Below, in pieces: positions 58,573 through 63,608 of a stretch of DNA of 64,000 bases. How positions within the stretch are numbered: the first letter of the stretch is position 1; every line of letters starts with the position of its first letter. The notes beneath the pieces are model-generated. The model was given only the letters and a program-made list of their open reading frames with translations. It had not been told where the DNA came from and did no database searches. The stretch is taken from NCBI GenBank assembly GCA_945874535.1, contig CAMCGZ010000002.1, forward strand, positions 1 through 64,000, given 5' to 3'. Source of the stretch: Bdellovibrio sp. ZAP7. GTDB lineage: Bacteria; Bdellovibrionota; UBA1018; CAIMNF01. The translations under genes and the position numbers were made by a program.

Positions 58573-59960
58573 GTCATTTGCTTGAGTTGGCGTACCTCTT
58601 CGGTTCGATTGCTTTTGTGGTCGGTCTCAAAATGATGGGACAGCCCGATTCCGCGCGGAAGGGCAACTGGGTCGCAGCTGCCGGCATGGCTGTTGCTGTT
58701 TTTGGAACCTGCTTTCTGGGTGAAGAAGGATTCCGGGTGATCGGGAATCTGAGTTGGATCGCTCTGGCCATCGTGATCGGGACCATTGTCGGCACCATCA
58801 TGGCCAAGCGGGTCCAGATGACCGCCATGCCCGAGATGGTCTCTCTCTTCAACGGGATGGGGGGCCTGTGTGCGGCATTGATCTCGGTCATCGAGTGGCG
58901 GGCTATTCAGGCCAGTGGTGAGCTCCTCACCGTGGGGCACTATCTCCCGATCATCGCCGGTCTGATCATCGGTACCGTATCCTTCACTGGCAGTATGGTC
59001 GCCTGGGGCAAGTTGAACGGGTCTGTCGGAGACTTCCGTTTCCAAGGTCAGCAGTTCATCAATGCCATCCTCCTGGTCGGAGTAATTGGCGCATCCGTAA
59101 TGACTTTCCGCGGAGGAGACCTGGGCACGCTCTGGTTCCTGATCACCATTGCCATTTCAATTGTGTACGGTCTCTTTTTCGTGTTTCCGATCGGGGGGGC
59201 GGATATGCCGGTTGTGATTTCACTCCTGAACTCTTTCACCGGTGTCGCGGCGGCATGTGGCGGGTTTTTGTATCACAATAACGTCATGCTCATGGGCGGG
59301 GTGTTAGTCGGTTCCGCCGGAACCATCCTCACCGTGGTGATGTGCAAGGCCATGAACCGTTCCCTCACGAATGTGCTGATCGGTCTCGCGGGCTCGAGCT
59401 CCTCCGGCGGGGGCAAGTCGGTGACCGGTTCTGTGCGTGAAGTTCAGGCGACGGATGTGGCGGTCATGATGAAGTACGCCCAAAAGGTGATCATCGTACC
59501 GGGCTACGGACTTGCTGTGGCCCAGGCCCAGCACGTCTGTCACGAGCTCGAAAGCATGCTCGAGGCCGAGGGGGTCGATGTGAAATATGCGATTCACCCT
59601 GTTGCCGGTCGGATGCCCGGACACATGAACGTCCTGCTTGCAGAGAGCAATGTCAGTTACGACAAGCTGGTCGAGATGGAACACATCAACTCGGAGTTTT
59701 CGACGACGGATGCTGTTTTGATCGTGGGTGCCAACGACGTGGTGAATCCTGCTGCCAAAACCGATCCGAGCAGTCCCATATTCGGGATGCCGATCCTCGA
59801 TGTGGACCAATCCAAACAGATCATCGTGCTCAAGCGCTCCATGAAGTCGGGTTATGCCGGAATCGAGAACGAGCTCTTCTTCAACTCCAAGTGCGGAATG
59901 CTGTTCGGAGACGCCAAAGAGAGTTTGCAAAAACTGGTCAATGAGCTGAAGACCGTTTGA
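58569..59960 (+). CDS. pntB: NAD(P) transhydrogenase beta subunit
   Basis: 463 residues. N-terminal half has about eight transmembrane spans (LLELAYLFGSIAFVVGLKMM; NAILLVGVIGASVMTF) and the C-terminal half the NADP-binding domain: VIIVPGYGLAVAQAQHVCHE, KYAIHPVAGRMPGHMNVLLA, NDVVNPAAKTDPSSPIFGMP and SMKSGYAGIEN. It forms the proton channel and NADP site. Ends inside the start of the MFS gene (TTGA). Confidence 0.95.
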   Translation: MSHLLELAYLFGSIAFVVGLKMMGQPDSARKGNWVAAAGMAVAVFGTCFLGEEGFRVIGNLSWIALAIVIGTIVGTIMAKRVQMTAMPEMVSLFNGMGGLCAALISVIEWRAIQASGELLTVGHYLPIIAGLIIGTVSFTGSMVAWGKLNGSVGDFRFQGQQFINAILLVGVIGASVMTFRGGDLGTLWFLITIAISIVYGLFFVFPIGGADMPVVISLLNSFTGVAAACGGFLYHNNVMLMGGVLVGSAGTILTVVMCKAMNRSLTNVLIGLAGSSSSGGGKSVTGSVREVQATDVAVMMKYAQKVIIVPGYGLAVAQAQHVCHELESMLEAEGVDVKYAIHPVAGRMPGHMNVLLAESNVSYDKLVEMEHINSEFSTTDAVLIVGANDVVNPAAKTDPSSPIFGMPILDVDQSKQIIVLKRSMKSGYAGIENELFFNSKCGMLFGDAKESLQKLVNELKTV

Positions 59961-61168
59961 TCCGGGCCCTGTTCGATCGTTCCATTTTCGCACTTTGGTT
60001 CGGGCAGGTCCTGTCCGGAGTAGGGGACGAGATTTACCGGGTGGCGTTCACCTGGATTTGCGTGCAGGAAGTCGGTAAAGATGCCGGCGGGCTTTCTTCC
60101 CTGTTGGTATTATCCGGGCTCGTCGGTGCCACCTTTGTGCCACGGTGGTTCGGTGCACTTCCGAGTGGCCGGGTCCTGGTCCGGCTCGATCTGTATCGCG
60201 CCGGGATTTGCCTCGTACCCGTGATTTTCTACCCGTTTCCCGAGTACCGGTTTCCGGCACTGCTGATCGCGACGATTCTTCTTTTCGGACTCAGTTCGGC
60301 TTTTGAACCCGTTCTGATGGAGTATGTTCCGAGGGTGGCTCGGACTCCGGAATTGCTCCGGGGTGCCAATGGTCTCATGGCCACCACCTATCGGCTGGCC
60401 AGGGTGCTCGGTCCGTCTATGGTGGGGATGCTCACTGCTTGGATTCCTCTCGTTCACTTTTTCACAGTGAATGCTTTGAGCTTTGTCGGATCGGCTGTGA
60501 GCATTCGCTCGATCCGTTTCAGTGGCGAGAGCATCGATTCGGGTCTGCGCTCGACTCCGGGGCTTCTCGGAACGTGGCGCTTGGTTCGGAACGTTCCGGC
60601 CATTCATCGGAGTCTGTGGGCCAAGTGTGTGAGTGGAGGCGCGTGGAGTCTCTCCTACGGTGTGGGGCTGGCTTTGTTGGTTGAAGAAATGAGGCCGGGG
60701 CAGGTGGCGACCTTCGGGACCCTGATCGCAGCTTACGGGGTCGGAAATCTTGCTGGAGCGATTGGAATCGGAAGCCTTCGAAGAAAACATCCCGAGCTCT
60801 GGATCTATGCCGGCTTGGTTTGGCTCGGGGTTGGATTCCTGTTTCTCAGTGGGACTCGGGACCTGATTTTGCTTCACTGGGTGATCGGATTCACTGCCAT
60901 GGGTGGACCGGTGAATGATCTTCCGTTTGTGGATCTGGCTCAACAGCACTTTCGCCCGGTGGAACTGGCAGGAGTCTTCCGGATCAAAGTGATTCTCGAT
61001 TCACTGATCACCTTGTTATTCTTTGCGGTCTCTCCTTGGGCGTTTCAGGTTCTGGGAGTCCGGAGGGTCATCGCCATCTGCGGTGCGGTCATGCTGCTGA
61101 GCGGAATACTGTCGGTTTTTGCCCGCAATTCAGTCAAAATCGGGCAGGGTGCCGAGGACACAGTCTGA
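59957..61168 (+). CDS. MFS transporter, probable drug/metabolite exporter
   Basis: 403 residues with about 10-12 hydrophobic segments. TTG start overlaps the pntB stop. SIFALWFGQVLSGVGDEIYR resembles the first span of MFS_3-type permeases (DUF894/enterobactin-exporter group), and PRVARTPELLRGANGLMATT with RLARVLGPSMVGML matches the loop and fifth-span motif of that group. It could export a small molecule. Function and substrate are inferences; coupling to the transhydrogenase is notable but may be incidental. Confidence 0.75.
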   Translation: MIRALFDRSIFALWFGQVLSGVGDEIYRVAFTWICVQEVGKDAGGLSSLLVLSGLVGATFVPRWFGALPSGRVLVRLDLYRAGICLVPVIFYPFPEYRFPALLIATILLFGLSSAFEPVLMEYVPRVARTPELLRGANGLMATTYRLARVLGPSMVGMLTAWIPLVHFFTVNALSFVGSAVSIRSIRFSGESIDSGLRSTPGLLGTWRLVRNVPAIHRSLWAKCVSGGAWSLSYGVGLALLVEEMRPGQVATFGTLIAAYGVGNLAGAIGIGSLRRKHPELWIYAGLVWLGVGFLFLSGTRDLILLHWVIGFTAMGGPVNDLPFVDLAQQHFRPVELAGVFRIKVILDSLITLLFFAVSPWAFQVLGVRRVIAICGAVMLLSGILSVFARNSVKIGQGAEDTV

Positions 61169-61220: not shown

Positions 61221-61249
61221 TTGACCGTTTCAATCAACAATGAGATTCT
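61221..61249 (+). promoter_or_regulatory. Promoter of the candidate structured RNA
   Basis: TTGACC (61221-61226), exact 17-base spacer ending in TGA (extended -10), then GATTCT (61244-61249). The predicted start is near 61256. GTTGA-N9-TCAAC (61220-61238) overlaps the -35 element and might be an operator. Confidence 0.5.
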
Positions 61250-61255
61250 GATTTC

Positions 61256-61588
61256 ACGGAGGACGGTATGAGAAAAACCGCAGCACAACAGCTGTCTCAT
61301 GACGCACGAGACGATAAGCATCAGTTCCACGACGCGGGGCCCCCACGGTAAGCCCAGCGTGAGATGACCACCAGACGTCGGTGGGTCTCATGGACCGCAG
61401 ATTCGAGCCCGGCCAGGTTCGAAGAGATGCGGCGAGTGTACACACAATTGAATAATGTTTGAGAGGGGAATAGTTGGAGTCGGGAGCCGGAAGAAAACTC
61501 GTAAGGCGATGATCCACCCCACACCCCCCTGAATAGTAGTCGTGATGACTCTAAGGGCCCGAGCGCAAGCTTCGGGCCCTTTTTTTAT
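61256..61588 (+). ncRNA. Candidate structured small RNA of about 330 bases
   Basis: The gap between the MFS gene and ung contains four consecutive hairpins: 61268-61300 (ATGAGA and CAGC pair with GCTG and TCTCAT); 61332-61360 (ACGC and GGGC with GCCC and GCGT); 61361-61389 (GAGA and CCACC with GGTGG and TCTC); 61395-61432 (CCGCA and an 8-bp inner stem TTCGAGCC / GGTTCGAA, then TGCGG). Each has a basal stem, an asymmetric internal loop and an inner stem. A promoter lies upstream and a strong terminator downstream. The sequence does not show the hallmarks of tmRNA, RNase P RNA, SRP RNA or 6S RNA. A 27-codon frame (61268-61351) with GGAGGACGGT in front lies over the first hairpins and might be a leader peptide instead. 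Confidence 0.55.
61553..61588 (+). terminator. Strong Rho-independent terminator
   Basis: Stem AAGGGCCCG-AGC closed by a GCAA tetraloop with one bulged T on the 3' side, followed by seven T residues, then ATTTT. It works only in the + direction; on the minus strand, downstream of ung, the U-tract is missing. Confidence 0.9.
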
Positions 61589-62262
61589 TTTAAACTGATG
61601 CGGGCCCACTCGATCGGATCGTGGCCCAAATCCCTGAGTGCTTCGTTGGTTTTGGAGTAAATCCGGCTTCCGAAGAATCCCCGATACGCAGAGAGAGGAG
61701 AGGGGTGAGGGGCTTCGATGATCCGGTGTCGGGTGGGATCGATTCGAGTGCGGAGCTTGGCAGCATGGCCTCCGAGTAAAAGAAACACCATTCCTGTCTC
61801 GCGGCGATTCAAGGCTTCTACTACACCATGAGTGAATTCAGTCCAGCCGGATTCGGCGTGAGAAAGGGGTTCGCCCCTGCGAACGGTCAATAAGGTGTTC
61901 AAAAGCAACACGCCCTGTTCCGCCCAGCCGGTCAGGTCCGATTCGTCTCGGGAGAGGGTACATTGAAGGTCCGTTTGAAGTTCTTTGAGAAGATTTTTCA
62001 GACTCGGGGGTTTTTTTGAGAGGGAATTCGGAACCGCAAAGCTGAGACCCATGGCCTGGGATTCACCATGATAGGGGTCCTGGCCGATCAACACGACTTT
62101 GACCCGATGGAAATCAGTCAGCCTGAAGGTGTGGAACAGATGATCCGGATCCGGATGAATGAGATATCCGGATTCGGTCTCGATTGCGAGAAAGCGCCTC
62201 AGTCGATTAAAATCCGGGTCGTTTAACGGACCACTCAAAGCTTTCTTCCAATTCTCGGACAT
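61585..62262 (-). CDS. ung: Uracil-DNA glycosylase, family 1
   Basis: 225 residues from MSENWKKALSGPLNDPDFNR; an in-frame GTG 10 codons upstream is possible. It removes uracil from DNA. Motifs: VLIGQDPYHGESQAMGLSFA (water-activating Asp), GVLLLNTLLTVR (uracil-binding), and HPSPLSAYRGFFGS (catalytic His and Leu-insertion loop). Second base-excision gene in the window besides nth. The stop codon sits in the tail of the opposing terminator. Confidence 0.95.
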   Translation of the reverse strand: MSENWKKALSGPLNDPDFNRLRRFLAIETESGYLIHPDPDHLFHTFRLTDFHRVKVVLIGQDPYHGESQAMGLSFAVPNSLSKKPPSLKNLLKELQTDLQCTLSRDESDLTGWAEQGVLLLNTLLTVRRGEPLSHAESGWTEFTHGVVEALNRRETGMVFLLLGGHAAKLRTRIDPTRHRIIEAPHPSPLSAYRGFFGSRIYSKTNEALRDLGHDPIEWARISLK

Positions 62263-62288
62263 TTGGTTCTCGACCAATGTATCCAGAT

Positions 62289-63608
62289 TCACGGTTGGTC
62301 TCCGAGTGGAATCTTGAAGCGACTCACCGGGCCTGATGAAGTGATGCCCGGGGCAAAGATGCAGGTGATTCTCCATTTCCAGATTCCAGGACCAGGTGGT
62401 GGCATGGCTACAAAGTTTTCGTTGGTTTCGAAGGTCTGCCCAGAGCTTTGAAAACTGAGTTCATTTCTAGTGACTTCGATCCGGAATCGTGGACAAGCGG
62501 GCATCTCTTTCCATCCGAGCAAAAACCGTCTCGAGAAGAACCGGAGTTGATCCGGGGTGAATTCAGCCTGATCGGACGGGGTGACTGCTTGGGGAGGCGG
62601 TAGGCTCCAGCTGAATCGAACAGGTTTTGAGCGTACCGTTTCTCCGTTTTTCATGTCCGCCTCAATTTGAACCTCCCAATCACTGGCAGTCCGCAATGGA
62701 ATCGGGAGTTCCACATTCTCGCGCTCAGTTTCGATGATGTTTTCAGAGCCTGAATCACGGACTCGAACCCGGTAAGGAGAGAGACGTCCATATCCGAGTG
62801 ACTTCCATTTGAAGCTGAAATTCTGCTCAGAGATCGGCAAACCGGAACTCAGTGGCCCGGAAGCCGGAGCATTGAGAATTCGGATCTCTTCGACGGGAGG
62901 GCGGAGTGCCAGAGTGAGCCGGGAAAGCAAAGGGCGTTCTTGAACCACCGGAATTGATTTTTCGGCTTCAGGGGATTCGCTCCTGTCGACTCGGGGTAGG
63001 GTGACCAATGTACTCTTCGCCTCCTCGGTTTTTTCAGGTTCCGGGAGTTCAGCTGAAATGAATTGAGGAGGGGGTTCTGGAGCGGAGAGTGGGATTGGGA
63101 GCGGAGGTGGAGGAGGAGGCAGTGCCTCGAAGATGACTTCGCCCCGGGTATTTTCCACCATCACGGGAGCTCCGTCCGGGCGGACAGCGGCTTTGACAGT
63201 CCCACTCTCGAGTGTGATCTTGATCTTGCGTTTGACTCCACCGAAACCGAGTGTTCTCACGGGTTCGATACGGATCAAGGATTCCGGTCCGAGTTCCAGG
63301 AGGTTTCCATCAGTCAAATGGACTCTGGCCGAGGCGCCCTTGCCCGTCAGGATCCGGTCTCCGACGAAAAGCGCATCCCCCGGATTGACTGAAGAGAATG
63401 AGATGGAAGCCTCTCCCCGTTTCCGGACCGCCCTCTTCTGCCGAATGACCTCGCCGATCGGGCTCTGACTCATCAGGTCTTTCCCCGACCCCATCCGTGA
63501 GGTGAGCCGAAATCCGCTCACTTCAATCAGGATCGGGAGGATGATGAGTGCGAGACCGAGAATCAGGATGGATCGCTCGTCGAATGAAAATCTCAAACGA
63601 TCAAGCAC
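62289..63608 (-). CDS. FecR-domain protein with proline-rich linker
   Basis: 439 residues from GTG, overlapping the stop of the phosphatase gene. One span near the N-terminus (SILILGLALIILPILIEVSG). Residues about 50-160 form a FecR-like domain: GEASISFSSVNPGDALFVGD, DRILTGKGASARVHLTDGN and ITLESGTVKAAVRPDGA. A poly-Pro segment (LPPPPPPLPIPLSAPEPPPQ) joins it to beta-rich modules with WxLPPPQ motifs. It is anchored in the inner membrane with its bulk in the periplasm. The coupling to a SpoIIE-type phosphatase suggests a stress-sensing pair. Confidence 0.75.
   Translation of the reverse strand: MLDRLRFSFDERSILILGLALIILPILIEVSGFRLTSRMGSGKDLMSQSPIGEVIRQKRAVRKRGEASISFSSVNPGDALFVGDRILTGKGASARVHLTDGNLLELGPESLIRIEPVRTLGFGGVKRKIKITLESGTVKAAVRPDGAPVMVENTRGEVIFEALPPPPPPLPIPLSAPEPPPQFISAELPEPEKTEEAKSTLVTLPRVDRSESPEAEKSIPVVQERPLLSRLTLALRPPVEEIRILNAPASGPLSSGLPISEQNFSFKWKSLGYGRLSPYRVRVRDSGSENIIETERENVELPIPLRTASDWEVQIEADMKNGETVRSKPVRFSWSLPPPQAVTPSDQAEFTPDQLRFFSRRFLLGWKEMPACPRFRIEVTRNELSFQSSGQTFETNENFVAMPPPGPGIWKWRITCIFAPGITSSGPVSRFKIPLGDQP

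Follow-up and report, generated by a model that had tools for sequence, protein, structure and literature searches.

A family of free-standing RNAs in one order of the Bdellovibrionota in which a short reading frame ending in Gly-Pro-Pro lies at a fixed distance from hairpins with palindromic loops

The window, a stretch of 64,000 nucleotides, comes from an uncultivated freshwater member of the Bdellovibrionota. Between a gene for an MFS transporter (59957–61168) and a convergent gene for uracil-DNA glycosylase on the minus strand (61585–62376) lies an RNA unit on the plus strand, which is composed, from 5′ to 3′, of a promoter-like element, a Shine-Dalgarno (SD) sequence, a short open reading frame (ORF), two hairpins, a less conserved 3′ part and a terminator. 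The promoter-like element (61221–61249) consists of a −35 hexamer TTGACC (61221–61226) and a −10 hexamer GATTCT (61244–61249) separated by a 17-nucleotide spacer, and TTGACC is retained 5′ of the SD sequence GGAGG in nearly all copies of the RNA within the genus. The intrinsic terminator (61555–61586) has a G+C-rich stem, a GCAA loop of the GNRA class and seven uridines, and a terminator is found in nearly all homologues inspected. Each unit, with its own terminator and, within the genus, a conserved promoter, stands alone. Both signals had been named in the original prediction, made from the letters of the window, which described a structured RNA, equipped with a promoter and a terminator, in a gene-free gap. 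The structured RNA is real, but it is not purely noncoding: a conserved 27-codon ORF with a consensus SD sequence occupies part of the gap, which is thus not free of genes. The predicted folding energy of −117.3 kcal/mol lies below that of shuffled sequences (−103.3 ± 4.9 kcal/mol; z = −2.87), none of 100 of which reached it.

The same prediction placed four successive two-tier hairpins in the gap. Conservation among relatives is strong and accompanied by compensatory changes, and covariation across genera bears out two of the four, hairpin 1 (61358–61392; outer stem CGUGAG/CUCAUG, inner stem CCACC/GGUGG) and hairpin 2 (61395–61432). The 5′-most stems fall inside the translated-looking ORF (61268–61351), and the 3′ stems, which comprise a pairing of G-rich with C-rich sequence and an AGUC–GACU hairpin, are seen within the genus only. 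Behind hairpin 2 follows an A/U-rich stretch, ACACAATTGAATAAT (61442–61456), which was recognized by eye in alignments and has AAAUUAAAUA-like counterparts in many homologues. Farther downstream (61480–61530), most copies of the genus show hardly any change in GGGAGCC...GGCGAUGAUC and the C-rich CCCC-A-CCCCCC, neither of which occurs elsewhere. Many distant copies carry a third hairpin with a GNRA loop 3′ of hairpin 2 (for example CCGAC-GGGA-GUCGG; L097, L100, L125, L128 and L129), often after the AAAUUAAAUA-like stretch.

Of 58 related genomes searched at the DNA level, 12 have the RNA, that of the window among them, and often in two copies. The second copy in the window's genome (contig C11, 74366–74718) and the conserved position of that other copy beside smc had been overlooked previously, as had the conserved GPP[R/K] end of the short ORF, the constant spacing between ORF and hairpin 1, and the palindromic loops. 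A first covariance model, R1, which represents the core, matched in 29 of 55 genomes of the order. The second model, R2, was built on 30 diverse copies and includes the GPP columns as sequence, leaving out the reading frame, the ribosome-binding site and the palindromic pairing; it matched in 37 genomes, all of the same order, and gave no match at E ≤ 0.001 in the 314 genomes from the rest of the phylum, which served as a negative control. In total, about 57 copies are distributed over 37 of the 55 genomes of this order (freshwater metagenome-assembled genomes), with one to four in each. Two copies, L041 and L044 (CALPVV020000039.1 and CALPVV020000043.1), stand in a record titled Nitrosovibrio sp. 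Nv4 that looks mislabelled.

No Rfam family matched the window or 20 homologous loci at the gathering threshold, and relaxed searches returned terminator-like sub-threshold matches only, so the RNA keeps its unassigned status. The match to BjrC68 (RF02353) reaches 30.1 bits, where 39 are required, and spans the terminator end only. Neither tmRNA (RF00023) nor 6S RNA (RF00013) matches the locus, and both occur elsewhere in these genomes or their close relatives, so that their earlier exclusion was correct: a separate tmRNA scores above the cut-off in 22 of 30 relatives, with sub-threshold matches only in the window's own genome, and a separate 6S RNA is present in that genome (contig C11, 2057–2233) and in 28 of 30 genomes. 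GOLLD, ROOL and OLE likewise have no match above threshold in the window or the 20 loci. An exact pattern of the distant type found no match in viral contigs and hence no sign of phage origin there. A different pattern, run on genome contigs, also matched records of Nakamurella, Streptomyces, Terrimicrobiaceae and 'Alphaproteobacteria'; these do not fit the covariance model and were taken as chance. The merRNA of Bdellovibrio bacteriovorus (PMC3627812) is likewise a stand-alone structured RNA of this phylum that regulates no downstream gene, but it contains a c-di-GMP riboswitch, whereas no Rfam riboswitch matches the present RNA. A described counterpart was not found in the literature, although most subscription journals and preprints lay outside the search, so that novelty is unproven. 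Sequence comparison establishes the family, its terminator, the ORF, the GPP motif, the fixed spacing, the stems and the palindromic loops, and this is almost certainly a real family of transcribed RNAs.

The SD sequence GGAGG (61258–61262), which nearly every copy of the genus and most distant copies share, precedes an ATG at 61268 that opens a frame of 27 codons, MRKTAAQQLSHDARDDKHQFHDAGPPR, closed by a stop codon. Within the genus the peptide reads roughly MRxNAARxLSxDAKDEKxxVHxxGPPR, differences are concentrated at third codon positions (pN/pS 0.55), and one copy (L012) bears an in-frame deletion of three nucleotides. In distant genera the N-terminus is largely unrelated, yet the SD-led ORF again closes with GPP[R/K], zero to two further codons and the stop; the position after GPP is occupied by D, N or G in three copies. 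Under a strict SD rule, an SD-led start is open to the motif in the frame of the ORF at 33 of 45 loci, as compared with 1 of 45 in each of the other frames. These features argue that the ORF is very probably translated. Two loci upstream of smc (L146 in G015 and L144 in G017) have SD-led short ORFs ending in ETGPPLH and SGQPP, respectively, before the stop codon, without the two-hairpin core; their occurrence in two families suggests that the ORF arose before the hairpin module or can exist apart from it.

The Gly-Pro-Pro-Arg codons (61337–61348) form a candidate programmed ribosome pause. GPP is kept in 43 of the 45 loci checked. Because all four Gly codons and all four codons for the first Pro occur, selection acts on the amino acids; the second Pro is always encoded by CCA or CCG. 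Second copies in three genomes of one subclade (L017, L102 and L103, in G007, G002 and G004) have lost the motif, which is replaced by EDPR in L017 and absent from the other two, and have kept the hairpins and palindromic loops, so a pause would not be needed by every copy. To our knowledge, GPP is not a proven strong arrest motif. Diprolyl motifs pause ribosomes, with XPP/Y stalling coming after the last proline (PMC4176338), and we regard a pause at GPP as slightly favoured. The ORF resembles the arrest peptides ApdA, ApdP, ApcA and SecM in being small, in varying at its N-terminus and in bearing a short motif that contains Pro close to the C-terminus. Arrest of the RAPP type occurs one codon earlier than XPP/Y stalling and needs the Arg (PMC10951233, PMC12992588). 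We rejected an arrest peptide of this type (R-A/G-P-P) for the present motif, xGPP[R/K], which has no essential preceding Arg: in the listed peptides GPP is preceded by A, V, T, S, I, K, H or other residues, and not by Arg. Further differences from the RAPP/RGPP peptides are that no secretion signal is seen and that there is often no downstream gene to regulate.

Between the GPP codons and hairpin 1, all 56 of the 56 copies are free of insertions and deletions. This spacing is unchanged even though most other genera have their stop codon two codons farther downstream than the genus does. If the second Pro codon begins at +1, pairing in hairpin 1 begins at +16. In toeprinting, +16 is the usual leading edge of a bacterial ribosome, here one with the second Pro codon in its P site, so a ribosome paused at this point would leave hairpin 1 folded. 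Coupling of a pause to the folding of hairpin 1 and to dimerisation (see below) is a serious possibility, if one to which we give a little less than even odds. The conserved SD sequence, start codon, reading frame and GPP[R/K], together with the pN/pS value in the genus, would also be expected of a plain small-protein gene whose hairpins are a stabilising 3′ untranslated region. We consider this improbable: outside the C-terminal motif the peptide is wholly different between many genera and its length ranges from 17 to 35 codons, the distance from GPP to the hairpin is held while the stop codon moves, and hairpin stems and loop symmetry are both maintained by compensatory change.

That maintenance is extensive. 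Across 30 diverse copies, 92.7% of cells in hairpins 1 and 2 and the loop palindrome are paired, and the covariation score of 0.680 exceeds those of shuffled alignments (0.283 ± 0.016) and of slid structures (0.115–0.179). In hairpin 1 the paired fraction is 97.1%, with changes on both sides in five of the seven outer pairs; in hairpin 2 both helices covary. The apical loop of hairpin 1 contains the palindrome GACGUC (61374–61379), whose variants in other copies include GAUAUC, GGUACC, GGCGUC, GGUGCC, GAGCUC, CACGUG, GAUGUC, UACGUG, GGGCCC, GAAUUC and AGGCUU, all self-complementary when G-U pairs are counted. In an offset scan, a full palindrome ends exactly 6 nucleotides 5′ of the 3′ arm in 49 of 56 copies; other offsets yield palindromes in at most five copies (0–5), with the exceptions of offsets 3 (21 copies) and 1 (11 copies). 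Five further copies have a 7-nucleotide palindrome with a central A (GAGACUC, AGGACCU), and two, L088 and the second copy of L082, have neither form in hairpin 1. Among the distinct hexamers, 12 of 14 are palindromic, a count reached in none of 200,000 column shuffles. The hexamer columns are paired as a palindrome in 97.8% of cells, and 23 cells are changed on both sides, against 7.0 ± 3.8 in expectation. The apical loop of hairpin 2 holds a second palindrome, GGCC (61411–61414), or GAUC or CGCG in a few copies, always palindromic; here 98.2% of cells are paired, with 6 both-side changes against 0.4 expected. Palindromes located anywhere in hairpin 1 are not significant for individual sequences, and since the 24-nucleotide loop region often contains a 6-nucleotide palindrome by itself, only the fixed-offset and covariation tests count. 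Relatedness of the genus copies causes the shuffles to overstate significance, which the distinct-hexamer test and later loci lessen but do not remove. Ten loci inspected once the idea had formed (L121–L130, of which nine belong to genomes or copies that R2 was the first to report) again have the start codon, the GPP ending and palindromic or near-palindromic loops.

A 6-nucleotide palindrome is unable to pair with itself within one molecule, and its natural explanation is pairing between two. The self-complementary apical loop, conserved by compensatory change, is what characterizes a kissing loop, and the RNA is thus likely to form a homodimer through at least one such contact, the hexamer of hairpin 1 and the GGCC of hairpin 2 being the two candidates. 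Natural homodimeric RNAs have rarely been observed (PMC7357161). Palindromic six-nucleotide apical loops able to self-pair between molecules dimerise HIV-1 RNA, at its dimerisation initiation site, and oskar RNA, in its 3′ UTR (PMC7357161). The present RNA, whose dimerisation is indicated by covariation only, differs in being bacterial and stand-alone and in carrying a tandem pair of these hairpins immediately after an ORF that looks translated. GOLLD, ROOL and OLE are also structured bacterial RNAs with intermolecular contacts, kissing loops included, that are conserved by covariation (PMC12286853), but these are large, ornate RNAs that form dimers or nanocages, whereas the unit described here has about 330 nucleotides and an ORF. 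A stand-alone transcription unit with a terminator and, in the genus, a conserved C-rich stretch could also belong to an ordinary regulatory RNA that pairs with target mRNAs through its loops or that stretch, the ORF merely stabilising it. Self-complementarity would not be expected to persist in loops with diverse targets, and the C-rich stretch is missing outside the genus; we hold this account, too, to be improbable.

In many genera one copy lies just upstream of smc in the same orientation, sometimes with another gene between. The arrangement of short ORF, structure and terminator resembles an attenuator, and an SD-led ORF lacking the core also precedes smc in G015 and G017. These observations favour a leader or attenuator of the next gene, originally smc, in which the GPP pause would decide between termination and read-through. 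Neighbouring genes, called as longest open frames, speak against it. The next gene is convergent for the window copy and at least seven others (L084, L078, L089, L090, L092, L095 and L128), so that at least eight copies have no cis target there, and the RNA in general is not the leader of its next gene. We therefore rejected an smc leader that needs a co-oriented gene behind every copy. In addition, smc is divergent from the adjoining copy in L101, one or more genes intervene in L088, L124 and L129, and attenuation would not explain the palindromic loops. Other copies are found near pnt genes and at unrelated places. An attenuator is thus unlikely as a general account, though a slightly better contender than the two rejected above; given the conserved adjacency, a cis role of the smc-adjoining copy is possible.

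None of the three rivals, the smc leader, the small-protein gene and the antisense RNA, accounts for both the palindromic loops and the fixed spacing. The locus is best explained as an RNA gene that stands on its own, belongs to a new family and has two parts that we infer to be coupled. For this reading, which takes the family, the ORF and dimerisation together with coupling as the leading, unproven mechanism, we estimate a probability of roughly 0.6. A ribosome would bind the strong SD sequence, translate the short ORF and, on reaching Gly-Pro-Pro, likely pause just short of hairpin 1. While paused it would leave hairpin 1 folded; advancing, it would melt it. Kissing contacts between like hairpins, 1 to 1 and 2 to 2, could join two copies of the RNA. 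Translation of the ORF would in this way gate folding and dimerisation, and through them the activity or lifetime of a trans-acting RNA. Such a pause-gated function in trans, with its putative target and cellular role, is a tentative proposal, somewhat more doubtful than pause-coupled dimerisation in the cell itself. If it is true, RNA quaternary structure would be controlled by whether a tiny ORF is translated; we found no described case in the literature of a dimerisation module at exact ribosome-length distance behind a conserved diprolyl motif. The same elements might instead tie ribosomes together, with one ribosome paused at GPP on each RNA and the kissing hairpins 1 and 2 joining two such complexes. 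Such a pairing or storage of ribosomes by RNA, which might serve a resting stage, is the least probable of the readings considered and would be a long shot.

Copies in the same genome often share a loop palindrome, even where sister genomes have a different one. Thus L008 and L017, and L009 and L103, have GAUAUC, as compared with GACGUC in L004 and L016. Heterodimers or gene conversion could lie behind this sharing, from which G002 departs.
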